DNA from: Candidatus Moraniibacteriota bacterium
Lineage (GTDB): Bacteria > Patescibacteriota > Minisyncoccia > Moranbacterales > GCA-2747515
NCBI GenBank assembly: GCA_027039165.1
Contig: JALWEZ010000057.1
Location: forward strand, 1 to 5,079
DNA: 5,079 nt
Reading direction: 5' to 3'
Positions 3 through 5,079 of the stretch are shown here, one piece after another (within the stretch, counting starts at the first letter, position 1; every line of letters starts with the position of its first letter). The notes beneath the pieces were generated by a model. It saw nothing but the letters and a program-made list of their open reading frames with translations. It made no database searches and was not told where the DNA came from. Made by a program: the position numbers and the translations under genes.

Positions 3-476
3 TTAAATCTGTACATAGGAGCCGTTTTTTTTAAATTTTTCTCCATTATGTTTAATTATCCAATCCGTAGATAAATGGGGTACACTGGTATCAGGTTCGT
101 TTAATATTATATGTAAACCATTTATATCTACATAGATATCTTTTACATAAGGTTGTTCTATATACATAATAGGTTTCAATGGTTCTAATCTTATCTCTGC
201 TGTATTAATAATAGGTTCAGGTCCTATCCAATCATTATTAGATACTATATTACCATTACTATCTTTGAAATGTCTCAACGCTCTTACGTAATATACTTTA
301 TTGGTAGGTATAGCTAAATTTACATTCCATGTATTCAAGTGTGTAGTAGATTGATTTTCTTGTAGTATCACATGGTTAGTAGATAGGTTATCTAGTATCT
401 GCCATGTAGTAGCATAATGATGTAGTCCTGTAGATTCGTCCCATTTACCTATATGAAATATTTTAGTACTAGCCAT
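3..476 (-). CDS. Phage virion-type protein with fibronectin-III-like fold (157 aa)
   Basis: This is a complete leftward frame that starts at ATG 474-476 behind a good Shine-Dalgarno site and stops at TAA 5-3. No signal peptide or membrane segment is visible. Residues ~15-90 have the beta-rich pattern of a fibronectin type III domain: a Trp (TTWQIL), alternating hydrophobic strands, the hallmark strand KVYYVRALRHF, then a turn and GPEPI. From residue ~110 a second similar unit seems to begin (VDINGLHIIL, STDWIIKHNG), but the protein ends before that unit could be complete. Such domains are common in phage tail, fibre and capsid-decoration proteins, so a virion or host-contact role is inferred; no named family is recognised. 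It is transcribed away from the recombinase gene. It could also be a hypothetical phage protein that only resembles FN3. That it is coding is fairly sure; the exact role is not. Confidence 0.7.
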   Translation of the reverse strand: MASTKIFHIGKWDESTGLHHYATTWQILDNLSTNHVILQENQSTTHLNTWNVNLAIPTNKVYYVRALRHFKDSNGNIVSNNDWIGPEPIINTAEIRLEPLKPIMYIEQPYVKDIYVDINGLHIILNEPDTSVPHLSTDWIIKHNGEKFKKNGSYVQI

Positions 477-586: not shown

Positions 587-1618
587 ATGTCTGTATTACA
601 GAAGTTAGGTATAAATAAAAATATGTCTATGAAACCATTGTTTAATGTAGGAGCATTATTAGATATCCCTACTGGATCTATTGTAACCGGTAAGTATGGA
701 GAATCTATTATTAATGGAGGATTATCCACTATAGAAGGTTTTGTAGGTCCCGGTAACAATTTTAAGTCTACAATAATGCACTATATGATGTATACGGCTG
801 CAGATAGAGCAGCTGCTAGTTTTCCTGATGTAGAAATGATAACATATGATACAGAAGACAACATGTTATTAAATGTAGATAGATATAACAACTTTATTAA
901 TAACCATACTAAATATTTAAATAAAGATCCTATAAATATAGGGCAATGGGTAATTATACCTAAATCACAAATGTCTGCTGATGTATGGGTGAAAGAAGTT
1001 TTATATCCTTATACTACAGAAAAAGAAAAAGATAATAAAAATTCAAGTACTTACTCAACAAATTCGTTAAATCAGATAAAAATTCAGAGTACTTCCACTG
1101 CTGTTTCAGATTTTTCAAAAAATCTAAAAGAAATTGATAAAAATTTAGAGAAAGAAAATAATTCAAACTTGATAGGATTTAATGTAGTAGATAAAGATAA
1201 TAAAAAACTTTCATTCAGATCTTTTTGTAGCGTAATAAGTATTAATTTACCAGAGTCAATAATTTCTAATATAGATGATGATTTTGTTGTATATGCTTAT
1301 CGAAGTCCAGTTACTTTAGTGACAAGGTTTAGTATTGTCGCTAAATCCTTAAATTCAGTAATGCTCAAAAAATCTTTGAATAGTTATGAAGCTAATTTGG
1401 TGAATTCTATGTATCCTTTATTTATTGAGAAAATATCTAAGCGTTCAGATGTTGTATTTGAAGATAGCGAGTATGATTCAAATAGAATAAGATTTTTTAA
1501 CTTTAAAGATGGAACCAATAAATCTATAGATTATTCGGTGGTAGGTGATAAATTGTTTATAGCTACAAGTATGGAAACAATGCATTTTTTGATGGACACA
1601 CTACTTTTTAAAAAATAA
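587..1618 (+). CDS. Hybrid frame: N-terminal UvsX/RecA-like recombinase joined to the tail of an unrelated bacterial protein (343 aa)
   Basis: Residues 1 to ~141 look like the start of a phage UvsX/RecA recombinase, an ATP-dependent strand-exchange protein for phage recombination and repair. Walker A is GPGNNFKST (54-62), with the FKS ending typical of T4 UvsX. ITYDTED (85-91) matches the strand carrying the catalytic glutamate, here Glu90. The usual protein is about 350-400 residues. Walker B, the DNA-binding loops and the rest of the core are absent. From about residue 143 the sequence becomes a Lys/Asn/Ser/Thr-rich linker and then a ~170-residue mixed alpha/beta region with no recombinase features. 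The start is fixed by AAGGAG and the upstream promoter. The frame passes through the join at about 1000-1050 without a stop. As it stands the product could bind nucleotide but should not be an active recombinase. I take it as two gene fragments fused by chimerism, not an evolved fusion. Confidence 0.75.
   Translation: MSVLQKLGINKNMSMKPLFNVGALLDIPTGSIVTGKYGESIINGGLSTIEGFVGPGNNFKSTIMHYMMYTAADRAAASFPDVEMITYDTEDNMLLNVDRYNNFINNHTKYLNKDPINIGQWVIIPKSQMSADVWVKEVLYPYTTEKEKDNKNSSTYSTNSLNQIKIQSTSTAVSDFSKNLKEIDKNLEKENNSNLIGFNVVDKDNKKLSFRSFCSVISINLPESIISNIDDDFVVYAYRSPVTLVTRFSIVAKSLNSVMLKKSLNSYEANLVNSMYPLFIEKISKRSDVVFEDSEYDSNRIRFFNFKDGTNKSIDYSVVGDKLFIATSMETMHFLMDTLLFKK
1000..1050. other. Left phage/bacterial junction (approximate)
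   Basis: Recombinase-like sequence ends around WVKEVLYPYT and the Lys/Asn-rich linker of a different protein begins. No inverted repeat, att-like core, transposase or integrase lies at the join. The only match to the right edge is the short, AT-rich TTATATC at 1001-1007 and 4908-4914, which is expected by chance. Confidence 0.55.
1014..1618 (+). pseudogene. C-terminal fragment of a CPR-type hypothetical protein (~200 aa, 5' end missing)
   Basis: This is the downstream part of the hybrid frame, listed separately because it seems to belong to the bacterial operon. It begins with a charged, low-complexity linker (TEKEKDNKNSS and on), followed by an ordered region running to TAA 1616-1618. Visible pieces include a DDDFVVYAY strand, a central KSLNS helix region, and VGDKLFIATS near the end followed by a helix. 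The strand-turn-strand-ATS ending resembles surface proteins whose last repeat reads 'dg-LVIATS-ea', but I cannot name the family. In Patescibacteria genomes I recall similar proteins with an N-terminal membrane anchor and a disordered linker near solute-binding protein and pilin genes; that anchor would be the missing part. The methyltransferase starts 19 bases downstream. The exact left boundary is uncertain by about 20-30 bases. Confidence 0.5.
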
Positions 1619-1637
1619 CTAAATATATAATATAAAA

Positions 1638-2168
1638 ATGAATAAAGAAATACAAGTGTTAAATCCCAAAAAGATACTTATAGACGCGGGATTAGAAGGA
1701 AATGAATCTGTTGCAGATTTTGGATGTGGCCCTGGAATTTTTACTATTCCTGCTTCTGAATTAACTAATGGGATTATCTATGCCCTGGATATTCAAGAGT
1801 CAGTTCTTGAAGCTCTTACAAATCAAATACATATTCATAATATTCCAAATATAAAGGTAAGTAGAGTGAATTTAGAGTCTATTGGAGGTAGTAAACTGAA
1901 AGATAAGTCTATTTCTTTTGTTATAATGAGGAAAATATTATTACAAAATGATAGAAAGGATATTATCTTAGAAGAGGCTTATAGAGTACTTAGGGATAAT
2001 GGTGTATTAATTGTTGTTGGATGGACAGAAACCGCTTTAATTGGACCAAAAGTTTCTGATAGATTAGAACAAGGAAAGCTCATTTCTTTAGCTAATGATG
2101 TCGGTTTTATTGTAAAGAAGCAATTATTGGAGGATGATAATCATTACGCTATAATGTTCTCTAAATAA
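1638..2168 (+). CDS. Class I SAM-dependent methyltransferase (176 aa)
   Basis: This is a small Rossmann-fold methyltransferase, probably cytoplasmic, that transfers a methyl group from S-adenosylmethionine to an unknown substrate. Motif I is VADFGCGPG (25-33), the SAM-binding glycine loop. ALDI (49-52) ends strand 2 with Asp51, the expected ligand of the SAM ribose. SFVIMRKILL (93-102) corresponds to strand 4, and EAYRVLRDNGVLIVVGW (113-129) is the helix-strand 5 element typical of the UbiE/Methyltransf_11 type. At 176 residues it is the bare catalytic core without an added substrate domain, so the target cannot be read from the sequence. ATG 1638 is the first start after the preceding stop (19-base gap). 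It has no Shine-Dalgarno site, only an A/T-only leader. The next gene follows 35 bases downstream. A menaquinone-type role is not supported by the context; modification of a surface component is only a guess. Confidence 0.88.
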   Translation: MNKEIQVLNPKKILIDAGLEGNESVADFGCGPGIFTIPASELTNGIIYALDIQESVLEALTNQIHIHNIPNIKVSRVNLESIGGSKLKDKSISFVIMRKILLQNDRKDIILEEAYRVLRDNGVLIVVGWTETALIGPKVSDRLEQGKLISLANDVGFIVKKQLLEDDNHYAIMFSK

Positions 2169-2203
2169 AAAATTGATAAATTGTAAAATATTAATTTGTA
2201 ATT

Positions 2204-3634
2204 ATGACTCAAAAGAAAATCATTCAAATAGCTGTTGTTATCGGAGTAATACTCGTTATTGTGATAACTGGTTTGTTTGTTTTCGGAAAAAAAGAAAAGC
2301 CAAAAGGAAGGTATACTATGGATTTAGAAGTATGGGGTGTTTTTGATAATTCTAGCGATTATAGTGCAGTATTTGATGATTATGCTAAATTAAATCCACA
2401 TATTGAAGATATAGAATACAAAAAGTTTACAATAGATAAATATAAAAAGGAATTAATAAATGCACTTGCGGCAGATAAAGGACCAGATATTTTTATGATA
2501 AAAAATACATGGCTTCCTGAATTTGAAGATAAAATTGTAGCTGTTTCACCTCAGATAATAACAGAAAAAGCTTTTGATGAAAATTTTGTTGAAGTAGTGT
2601 CTCATGATGCAAAAGATGGTTCAGATATATATGCGGTTCCAATGTCCGTTGATTCGCTAGCTCTTTATTATAATAAGGACATATTTAATTCTATGGGTAT
2701 TATATCACCACCAACTACATGGGAAGAACTTAGTGAAGATGTTAAATTGATAACTAGATATGACGATGAAAGTAATCAAATAATTCAAAGTGGAATTGCA
2801 TTAGGAACAGCGCAAAATATAAATTCAGCAGCTGATATATTAACTGTTCTTATGATGCAAGGTGGAGCTGAAATGTCGCGAAATGGTATAGCTACTTTTA
2901 ATAATATGATTGAGTTAGCTGGAAAAACAGTTAATCCAGCAGAAAGAGCTTTACAGTACTATACACAATTTGGTAGAGTTACTAATTCTAAATTATATAC
3001 TTGGAATGATGAGCAACACTACTCTTTAGATGCATTTGCAGAAGGTAAAACTGCTATGATGATAAATTATTCTTGGCAAATAGAGTCAATTAAACACAAA
3101 AATGAAAAGTTAAATTTTGCAGTTGCACCTCTTCCACAAACTGATGCAAAAAATAAAAGAATTTACAAGGCAAATTATGCGAATTACTGGATGTTTGTTG
3201 TAGCAAAGGACAAGAAACTTTCGCAATCTGATAGTTCTAGTAAAATAAAATTAACAAACAAAATAAGAATTCATGAAGCATGGCAATTTATCAAAGCACT
3301 TACTTTTCCAAGTAAAAATGGTATAATCTTGACAGATGCAACTACTGGCGTAGCAAGAAAGTATATGCCAACTATGGATTATACGAAGGAATATTTAGAT
3401 ATCACTAAAAAGCCAGCAGCTAGATTGGATTTAATTAAGGAACAAAGAAAAGATCCCGTTATGGAACCATTTGTCCTAGGTAATTTAATAGCGAAAAACT
3501 GGTATCATCCAAATGCTGATGCGGTAGAAAGAATTATAGCTAATATGATAACACAATATAATTCAGGTGAGGTAGCTTCAATTGAAGAAGCTCTAGGACT
3601 AGCTAGTCAACGAATTAATAATTTAATGAGATGA
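2204..3634 (+). CDS. Membrane-anchored extracellular solute-binding protein, ABC sugar-binding type (476 aa)
   Basis: The fold is that of a family 1/8 bacterial extracellular solute-binding protein, the capture subunit of ABC importers, commonly for sugars. An N-terminal membrane segment (about 6-28) is followed by GKKEKPKG. There is no lipobox cysteine, so it is probably held by the uncleaved helix rather than by lipid. Characteristic pieces are LEVWGVFDN (41-49), YKKELINALAADKGPDIFMI (80-99), YAVPMSVDSLALYYNKDIF (143-161), TWEEL (172-176), YTWNDE (265-270), DAFAEGKTAMMINYSWQ (276-292) and LNFAVAPLPQ (303-312). The length is normal for the family and the C-terminal INNLMR is where relatives I recall end. 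The stop is TGA, overlapping the next ATG by four bases, so the pair are probably translationally coupled. No permease or ATPase gene is nearby, so either the transporter is encoded elsewhere or the protein has a surface-binding role. The ligand is unknown. Confidence 0.9.
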   Translation: MTQKKIIQIAVVIGVILVIVITGLFVFGKKEKPKGRYTMDLEVWGVFDNSSDYSAVFDDYAKLNPHIEDIEYKKFTIDKYKKELINALAADKGPDIFMIKNTWLPEFEDKIVAVSPQIITEKAFDENFVEVVSHDAKDGSDIYAVPMSVDSLALYYNKDIFNSMGIISPPTTWEELSEDVKLITRYDDESNQIIQSGIALGTAQNINSAADILTVLMMQGGAEMSRNGIATFNNMIELAGKTVNPAERALQYYTQFGRVTNSKLYTWNDEQHYSLDAFAEGKTAMMINYSWQIESIKHKNEKLNFAVAPLPQTDAKNKRIYKANYANYWMFVVAKDKKLSQSDSSSKIKLTNKIRIHEAWQFIKALTFPSKNGIILTDATTGVARKYMPTMDYTKEYLDITKKPAARLDLIKEQRKDPVMEPFVLGNLIAKNWYHPNADAVERIIANMITQYNSGEVASIEEALGLASQRINNLMR

Positions 3635-4134
3635 ATTTTATGTTAAATAGCAAAATTTTTACTTCTGTGTTTTTGATGGCCATTATGTTTTTTAGTATTT
3701 CTATTCCTTCAATAGTTAGTGCGGAAGATCCAGTTCCGGATGAGGGTTTGGTTCCTTGTGGCACAAAAAAACATCCAGAAAGATGCACGATATGTCATTT
3801 GTTTGTATTAGCTCAGAGAATTATAGCAAAACTTACAAGTTGGATTTTTGTAACGGCTGTTGTAGTGATTGCTATCGCTGGTGTAATATATATTGTTTCA
3901 GTAGGGAATCAAACAATGACTAGTATGGCAAAAACTGCTATAAAATCTGCACTTTTGGGTTCGACTATAATTTTAGTCGCTTGGCTTGCTATATCTACTA
4001 TAATGCTTGCTATGGCACTAAAAAATGAAGGTGTATCAAAAGATGGAAAAGGACTTATTTTACAACGTGCTTCAAAAGATGACGATGGAAAACCAGTAGG
4101 TATAATCACTAGTTGGAAATTTGTGTGTAAGTAA
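3631..4134 (+). CDS. Type IV secretion pilin-like membrane protein with signal peptide and cysteines (167 aa)
   Basis: A signal peptide is visible: hydrophobic residues ~9-28, with probable cleavage after SIVSA (27-31). A short exported segment follows with VPCG and RCTICHLFVL, placing cysteines at 43, 52 and 55. Two membrane helices follow at about 70-91 and 105-129, separated by the polar VGNQTMTSMAKTAIKSA loop, then a hydrophilic tail with a last cysteine at 166. The two helices with a small polar loop are the VirB2/TrbC pilin architecture, and the C-x8-C-x2-C head matches the T4SS-pilin type I recall from Patescibacteria. The cysteines may form disulfides outside the cell; this is inference. 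The start at 3631 overlaps the upstream stop by four bases (ATGA); ATG 3640 is an alternative, and the signal peptide is intact either way. No Shine-Dalgarno site is visible. Confidence 0.78.
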   Translation: MNFMLNSKIFTSVFLMAIMFFSISIPSIVSAEDPVPDEGLVPCGTKKHPERCTICHLFVLAQRIIAKLTSWIFVTAVVVIAIAGVIYIVSVGNQTMTSMAKTAIKSALLGSTIILVAWLAISTIMLAMALKNEGVSKDGKGLILQRASKDDDGKPVGIITSWKFVCK

Positions 4135-4151
4135 TTTTTATTTAAACAAAT

Positions 4152-4415
4152 ATGAACATTGCTCATGCGGGAGTTATAACAGATGCTCCATCGATAAGTG
4201 AAATTATCTTGAACTTTATACAAATGTTTTTGAGTTTTGTTGGTGGATTGGCAGTTTTACTTATTTTAATTTCTGGAATTCTCTATATGACTTCTACTGG
4301 AGATTCAAGTAGAAGTGAATTTGCAAAAAAAGCCTTGACTGGCAGTGTTGTTGGATTAGTTTTTGTTATTTTATCTTTTGTTATATTAAAAGTTATCGCA
4401 AAAGCTCTTATTTAA
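4152..4415 (+). CDS. Second small VirB2/TrbC-type pilin-like protein (87 aa)
   Basis: This is a minimal two-helix membrane protein. Hydrophobic segments lie at about 17-47 (with FVGGLAVLLILISGILYM in the middle) and 65-87. They are separated by the polar turn TSTGDSSRSEFAKKALTGS, in which the G-D-x-S-R-x-E-x-A-K-K-A pattern is typical of bacterial T4SS pilin-like proteins. It has no cleavable signal peptide and none of the cysteines of its neighbour. It begins 17 bases after the preceding stop and ends 14 bases before the next gene, clearly in one operon. It probably sits in the cytoplasmic membrane and may assemble with, or as an alternative to, the larger pilin-like protein. No VirB4, VirB6 or VirD4-type gene is in the window, so a secretion or conjugation role cannot be claimed. 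ATG 4152 has only an A/T-rich leader with no Shine-Dalgarno site. Confidence 0.78.
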   Translation: MNIAHAGVITDAPSISEIILNFIQMFLSFVGGLAVLLILISGILYMTSTGDSSRSEFAKKALTGSVVGLVFVILSFVILKVIAKALI

Positions 4416-4429
4416 TTTATTCCTAAAAT

Positions 4430-4945
4430 ATGTCAAAAAAAGAAAAAATTTCTAATGTAATAGATTTAGTGATAAAAAAACTTTTAGTAATTTTTGCTTT
4501 TGTTTTTCCAGTTTTTTTTGTGTCAAATATTACATTACAAAACATAATTTTTCAAAAATTCTATTTTTTCTATATCTGTGTATTTTTTATTATAATATTG
4601 TTTATATGTAGGTCTTTTTTAAAAGGCATCTTCGAATTAAAAAGACATAGAATAGACATCTTTGTCTTAAGTTTTCTTTTTGTGTCCGGGATAGGAACAT
4701 TTCTTTCAATTGATAAATATCACAGTTTTTTTGGTTTTTTAAATGTTCCAAGTCAAACATTTTTATCTATAATTTTATTATCAGCCCTGTATTTTATAAT
4801 AAATTTTTATGCAGACAAAAAACTCATCAAAAATATAATCATTGCGCTCATATTGAGTAATATAATTATTTTTATTTGGAGTATTTTAGGGTTATTGGGT
4901 TTTTTGCTTATATCATTACTAAAAATAATTCCATTGGATATATAA
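4430..4945 (+). CDS. O-antigen ligase/polymerase-like membrane protein, C-terminally truncated (171 aa left)
   Basis: The sequence is highly hydrophobic, with membrane segments at about 17-36, 45-65, 77-95, 111-128 and 133-158. Between the third and fourth segments lies LSIDKYHSFFG (92-102), a loop I associate with the N-terminal half of Wzy/WaaL-type O-antigen ligase family proteins, which join or polymerise surface glycans. Full-length members have 10-12 membrane segments and at least 400 residues; Patescibacteria versions often carry C-terminal TPR repeats. Here the frame stops after about five segments, and the large periplasmic loop with the catalytic residues is missing. The protein is therefore a fragment. 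The stop at 4943-4945 lies where the sequence changes character, so it probably comes from joined flanking DNA rather than a true gene end. It starts 14 bases after the pilin-like gene without a Shine-Dalgarno site. Confidence 0.68.
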   Translation: MSKKEKISNVIDLVIKKLLVIFAFVFPVFFVSNITLQNIIFQKFYFFYICVFFIIILFICRSFLKGIFELKRHRIDIFVLSFLFVSGIGTFLSIDKYHSFFGFLNVPSQTFLSIILLSALYFIINFYADKKLIKNIIIALILSNIIIFIWSILGLLGFLLISLLKIIPLDI

Positions 4946-5078
4946 ATAACCGTGGCGTATCAATAAGAGTAATATTTCCAAAATCAAATTTTTGAATATC
5001 TTTAAAATCATTTTTATTAAATTGTATATGATATAAAGGATGTGGAAATATACTCTTTTTAGAACGCTCATATTCAGA
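4908..5078 (-). CDS. C-terminal end of an unidentified leftward gene, probably phage (56 aa visible)
   Basis: A minus-strand frame stays open from the right edge of the window to TAA 4910-4908 and begins upstream of what is visible. The peptide starts SEYERSKKSIFPHPLYH and continues through KNDFKDIQKFDFGNITLIDT to PRLFIYPMELFLVMI. It looks like ordinary soluble protein sequence up to about LFIY. The last dozen residues lie over the membrane-protein gene on the other strand and are probably junction read-through rather than the true C terminus. I do not recognise a family. It overlaps the 3' end of the O-antigen ligase-like frame tail to tail. The frame does not continue the recombinase, which would need plus-strand coding here. 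It is too short for a firm call. Confidence 0.4.
   Translation of the reverse strand, partial: SEYERSKKSIFPHPLYHIQFNKNDFKDIQKFDFGNITLIDTPRLFIYPMELFLVMI
4925..4955. other. Right bacterial/phage junction (approximate)
   Basis: The membrane-protein frame loses its pattern after KIIPLDI and stops at once. To the right all three plus-strand frames meet stops within short distances, while one minus-strand frame stays open to the window end. The exact base cannot be placed by eye. Confidence 0.45.
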
Positions 5079-5079
5079 A

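Follow-up and report, generated by a model that had tools for sequence, protein, structure and literature searches.

Scaffolds that combine two organisms are rare in metagenome assemblies, and the part of PMC7111523 that deals with them gives as their typical marks a lack of paired-read support, very different coverage, and differing phylogenetic profiles on either side of the join. The DNA analysed here, called the window throughout, is the entire 5,079-bp contig C57 of a Candidatus Moraniibacteriota genome (G000; 265 contigs, 1,151,606 bases, 92% complete). It contains parts of two systems that have intact relatives. The UvsX-type recombinases of large phages are proteins of 487–492 residues in the four intact relatives P0006–P0009. 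The same-genus relative Candidatus Moranbacteria bacterium TAG_MAG_00007 (G001), which served as the host-side reference, has an operon encoding polynucleotide phosphorylase (PNPase), a membrane protein, a methyltransferase, a solute-binding protein, and two pilin-like proteins. Comparison with these relatives leaves us highly confident that the window is a chimeric contig, in which the start of a phage gene pair is fused to a broken Moranbacteria-type operon, most likely by a false join. A literature search of titles and abstract openings returned nothing on such a contig.

Hybrid protein at the left junction

The 343-residue product of the open reading frame (ORF) at 587–1618 is a hybrid. 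Its first ~145–148 residues are of the phage UvsX type, and its last ~198 residues are the C-terminus of a Moranbacteria protein. The left junction lies in an A-rich stretch of ~14 nucleotides (1022–1035) which, going by the relatives of each, is compatible with the phage as well as the bacterial parent. DNA alignments to phage loci end at 1029 (L069) and 1035 (L068), the alignment to G001 begins at 1028, and agreement with the database protein P0002 begins at residue 146, which corresponds to base 1022. The eight aligned hits of the hybrid form two unrelated sets, bacterial (P0002–P0005) and phage (P0006–P0009). The initial annotation had held that full-length homologues of this protein would mark the region as one natural locus; among the 120 of 542 hits listed, only the query itself exceeds 72% coverage.

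The two sides of the left join come from different taxonomic sources. The phage-collinear stretch comprises bases ~39–1035 and aligns at the DNA level with a 185-kb phage contig (145–1035, 68% identity) and a 186-kb phage contig (126–1029, 67%), collinearly in both cases. Moranbacteria sequence starts at 1022, and bases 1028–4016 are 72.9% identical to G001 DNA. The different sources of the left flank and the middle support a chimeric contig over one natural locus.

The UvsX-type recombinase gene (587–1030, plus strand; PHROG 97 UvsX-like recombinase, E 6e-9) is truncated by the left junction and lacks a full-length reading frame; its resemblance to the intact relatives ends at about residue 145–148. 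The retained part is 46–71% identical to its counterparts in the eight IMG/VR phage loci found with it (L068–L075) and matches 169 phage records in tblastn. Among the 35 genomes searched, the UvsX half occurs in its own genome only. A nucleotide search of the whole window against 50,697 phage records gave no match.

Unbroken versions and other parts of the cut host genes

The first and last host genes are both incomplete in the window, the first without its 5′ part and the last without its 3′ part, just as the initial annotation had described them. The first is a bacterial membrane-protein gene of unknown function (1022–1618, plus strand), of which the last ~198 codons remain. They are 64% identical to residues 308–499 of the 500-residue protein of G001; the membrane segment was read by eye from the sequence. 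The intact protein P0002 (514 residues) equals the window from hybrid residue 146 onward with four mismatches. The last host gene encodes a large membrane/tetratricopeptide repeat (TPR) protein (4430–4938, ORF to 4945, plus strand) and is truncated by the right junction after ~169 codons. The database protein P0121 (901 residues; 939 in G001) equals residues 1–169 of its product with four mismatches, three of them in the final 14 residues before the join. The existence of near-identical, unbroken database entries for both cut bacterial genes favours an artefact.

P0002 and P0121 are each listed with one 16,219-bp contig, and the database proteins P0005 and P0124 each with one 7,794-bp contig. 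We infer that in both sources the first and last host genes lie in one uninterrupted locus.

Other contig ends of G000 carry additional parts of the two broken genes. P0002 residues 1–127 match the end of C147 beside the PNPase gene, residues 314–514 match C57, and nothing matches between them; the end region of C147 thus contains ~125–127 N-terminal codons of the first host gene. The large G001 protein matches C57 with residues 6–178 and C226 with residues 274–939, up to base 7009 of 7011. As the matches of both proteins are split over contig ends, the contigs C147, C57, and C226 appear to follow one another in a single chromosomal locus. By comparison with the intact proteins, the stretches missing between the contigs amount to ~187 codons (560 bases) in the first gene and 98 codons (~290 bases) in the last. 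Of the four contig ends that flank the two gaps, three (C147, C57 left, and C57 right) bear unrelated sequence, and that of C226 is clean. The search for exact overlaps between C57 and C147 or C226 gave none that was convincing at 12–16 nucleotides; those among the matches listed are short A/T-rich words. A genome-contig scan with P0002 for a same-species contig suitable for DNA comparison found the same-genus genome only.

At the end of C147 (L077, 2–286), the first ~125 codons of the membrane-protein gene continue, in the same frame, into a tail encoding a ClpB-type AAA lid, which makes this a second chimeric-looking contig end in the genome. This tail matches PF17871 (E 9.5e-26); its identity to the two other ClpB-like places detected in G000 is 42% and 32%.

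Phage DNA may instead have been inserted naturally into a Moranbacteria chromosome, for example as a decaying prophage fragment; in favour of this, the bin that contains the contig is a Moranbacteria-type genome. We consider such an insertion very unlikely. Both cut genes exist in near-identical, unbroken form, and the other part of the first gene bears a different, ClpB-type tail. G000 has no second match to the phage neighbourhood L068 (first 19,999 of 20,393 bases used). The window has no tRNA, and the initial annotation had already noted the absence of mobile-element signs: no integrase or transposase family was found in the nine segments scanned, and no convincing or att-like repeat pair joins the two edges among the matches listed (20 of 34 direct families and 25 of 67 inverted pairs).

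Start signals

The two left-flank genes have duplex energies with the anti-Shine-Dalgarno sequence of −5.6 and −9.2 kcal/mol, whereas the five host starts as listed range from +0.8 to −3.1 kcal/mol, or reach −4.8 kcal/mol with 3640 as the start of the first pilin gene. The corresponding values are −5.4 (left gene) and −8.7 (uvsX) in the phage relatives L068 and L069, and +1.3 to −3.9 for five host starts of G001. The contrast in start signals, seen earlier in the initial annotation, fits two different genomes. A good Shine-Dalgarno match is absent at most host starts in the window (1638–4430) and at the five G001 starts checked.

Right junction and tail

The right junction was placed at 4937–4942. 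Agreement with P0121 ends after residue 169, and a stop codon follows at 4943–4945. The junctions thus lie inwards of the edges at 1000 and 4955 proposed earlier. Mismatches to P0121 crowd beside the right junction (4895–4942), with three in residues 156–162 compared with one in residues 1–155, as if the consensus were poor there.

The remaining 137 bases (4943–5079) form the right tail. The tail has no significant relative among phages, six phage records, IMG/VR, the protein database, genome contigs, and plasmids, and at E 10 no Pfam family matches it. Only close relatives are within reach of the scans of IMG/VR and genome contigs, the protein search is confined to proteins of similar length, and the 56-residue query contains ~11 residues from the bacterial side. 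The sole sub-threshold match (E 0.04–0.06; values of 0.042 and 0.060) spans 28 residues at 39% identity and leads to a 226-residue gene of the phage locus L071. We rejected this match, given its weakness, as the identity of the tail. At most it is a hint that phage DNA, though not a continuation of uvsX, may make up the tail as well. The gene lies at 13332–14009 of L071, ~9 kb from uvsX, and has relatives in three of the seven other phage loci.

Phage sequence would resume beyond the host segment, if at all, in a short 137-bp tail that has one sub-threshold phage lead and no significant phage match. The initial annotation had pictured a bacterial operon between two phage-like flanks. Searching left flank, middle, and tail separately, as it had suggested, yielded phage contigs for the first, Moranbacteria for the second, and nothing significant for the third, so that its phage left flank and bacterial middle are borne out and its phage right flank is not.

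A phage that had taken up host chromosomal DNA through illegitimate recombination within uvsX would likewise have phage and bacterial DNA in one contig. The short A-rich microhomology at the left join agrees with such an event, as does the tail's only lead, a phage gene under the significance threshold. We nevertheless regard capture as highly improbable, and the weak tail match does not alter this view. Capture would disrupt the UvsX-type recombinase gene and leave a broken host gene at either edge, and more of both cut host genes is found at contig ends of the same assembly. The tail has no match in six phage records at E 1 (no positive control), and its lead in L071 lies too far from uvsX to be its continuation. 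None of the eight related phage records, several of which may be fragments, yielded the solute-binding gene of the middle (no positive control), as opposed to 34 of the 35 genomes searched, its own included. Since this gene is so widespread in the genomes, the middle is ordinary chromosomal content. That a real large phage of this habitat gained surface and pilin genes from Moranbacteria, ~3.9 kb in all, within uvsX is a form of the exciting alternative raised by the initial annotation and a most improbable reading of the window.

Possible origin of the probable false join

We propose that read coverage may have failed within the two edge genes, the first and the last host gene, and thereby left two assembly gaps. 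The contig ends would then have been extended into unrelated sequence, on the left via the short A-rich overlap. It is also possible, albeit considerably less likely, that the chimera is a DNA molecule made in the laboratory, by ligation or during whole-genome amplification, and not an assembler error; this possibility is included in our confidence in a chimeric contig. A molecule of this kind would be consistent with the short A-rich overlap at the left join, and a contig with foreign ends would look alike. In our judgement, extension by the assembler accounts slightly better for unrelated tails at three out of four contig ends by the two gaps. The initial annotation had offered a chimeric assembly or a constructed splice as the simplest reading. 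The different sources of left flank and middle, the unbroken host genes, and the pieces on C147 and C226 speak for the former, and a constructed splice is needless for a sequence that is a contig of an assembly.

Several observations weigh against a false join. Both protein fusions, at the left end of C57 and on C147, are in frame, for which the chance is ~1 in 9. The base-composition step along the window is small. The searches yielded no parent for the right tail, whose only, sub-threshold lead, from L071, is a phage gene. The common contig of P0002 and P0121 is deduced from their both being listed with 16,219 bp, and the join itself is read from sequence comparison; both steps are of an inferential kind. 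The large TPR gene of G001, 50% identical to that of the window, lies on another contig (C11) and not behind the pilin-like genes of C62. Finally, further broken ends seem scarce in the same genome, as judged from a census sample.

The census compared 24 contigs of G000 (C57, C147, C226, and C93, which had been matched earlier, and 20 chosen by number) with ORFs from 951,862 bases of G001. Eleven of the 20 chosen by number could be judged and nine had no G001 match. One possible further broken end was found, on C50; with one such end among 11 contigs, false joins seem local in G000 and not general. Three contigs, C52, C63, and C140, were flagged deep inside, which we read as probable shared domains or divergent termini, and the other seven were unflagged. 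The census overlooked the break on C147 because that N-terminus is poorly conserved. On C50 (L091, 5011–5161), the match to a G001 protein breaks off 150 bp short of the contig end and leaves 534 residues unmatched.

Genes of the host segment

The host side is of Moranbacteria-type Patescibacteria. Between the two cut genes, the segment contains four complete genes on the plus strand. A bacterial gene for an S-adenosylmethionine-dependent methyltransferase (1638–2168; Pfam Methyltransf_31, E 1.2e-12) encodes a product 71% identical to its G001 orthologue, which stands in the same order. It is followed by a bacterial gene for an extracellular solute-binding protein (2204–3634; Pfam SBP_bac_1, E 2.6e-24). 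Two genes for small membrane proteins resembling type IV secretion system (T4SS) pilins come next. The first of them (3631–4134, with a start maybe at 3640) matches T4SS_pilin at E 0.0012, under the curated cut-off, and its product is 56% identical to the G001 orthologue. The second (4152–4415) matches the same Pfam family over the cut-off (E 1.5e-9), with 61% identity to the G001 orthologue. The large TPR gene of G001 adjoins a uvrA-like gene and is ~440 bp from the end of C11; its placement would result from either a rearrangement in G001 or a break in that assembly.

Phage gene pair of the left flank

The left flank begins with part of a large-phage gene that diverges from uvsX (3–476, minus strand). 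Its first ~146 codons are preserved, and 157 are read. The gene was found by tblastn in all eight IMG/VR phage loci at 33–56% identity and encodes 604 and 610 residues at full length in the phage relatives L068 and L069. The part in the window has no Pfam or PHROG match at E 0.1. In each of the eight related phage loci, the gene stands head to head with uvsX, a conserved pairing. Bases 3–38, the last ~11 codons read, do not align to phage relatives and run into a stop codon. Bases 1–38 at the contig end are possibly another low-quality end.

Comparison with known systems

If true, capture by a phage would be a record of a large phage that infects an ultra-small Patescibacteria host and shuttles its surface genes. 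As an artefact, the window calls for caution, since it could be mistaken for evidence of a phage–host pair. The 343-residue hybrid stands as an entry of its own in the protein collection (P0001), and a foreign-looking end occurs on at least one further contig of G000 (C147).

Like the UvsX-like recombinase genes of large phages (PHROG 97; the 185- and 186-kb IMG/VR contigs), that of the window is part of a collinear gene pair with similar start signals. It keeps 71% and 64% protein identity to these two contigs, respectively, in the retained part, but has only ~145–148 of ~490 codons. The window shares five genes with the G001 operon in the same order, at 56–72% protein identity; it lacks the PNPase gene and the 5′ part of the membrane-protein gene, and in it the pilin genes are followed by the start of the TPR gene. 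Among the marks that the relevant part of PMC7111523 gives for chimeric metagenome scaffolds, the differing phylogenetic profiles are seen here on the two sides of the left join.

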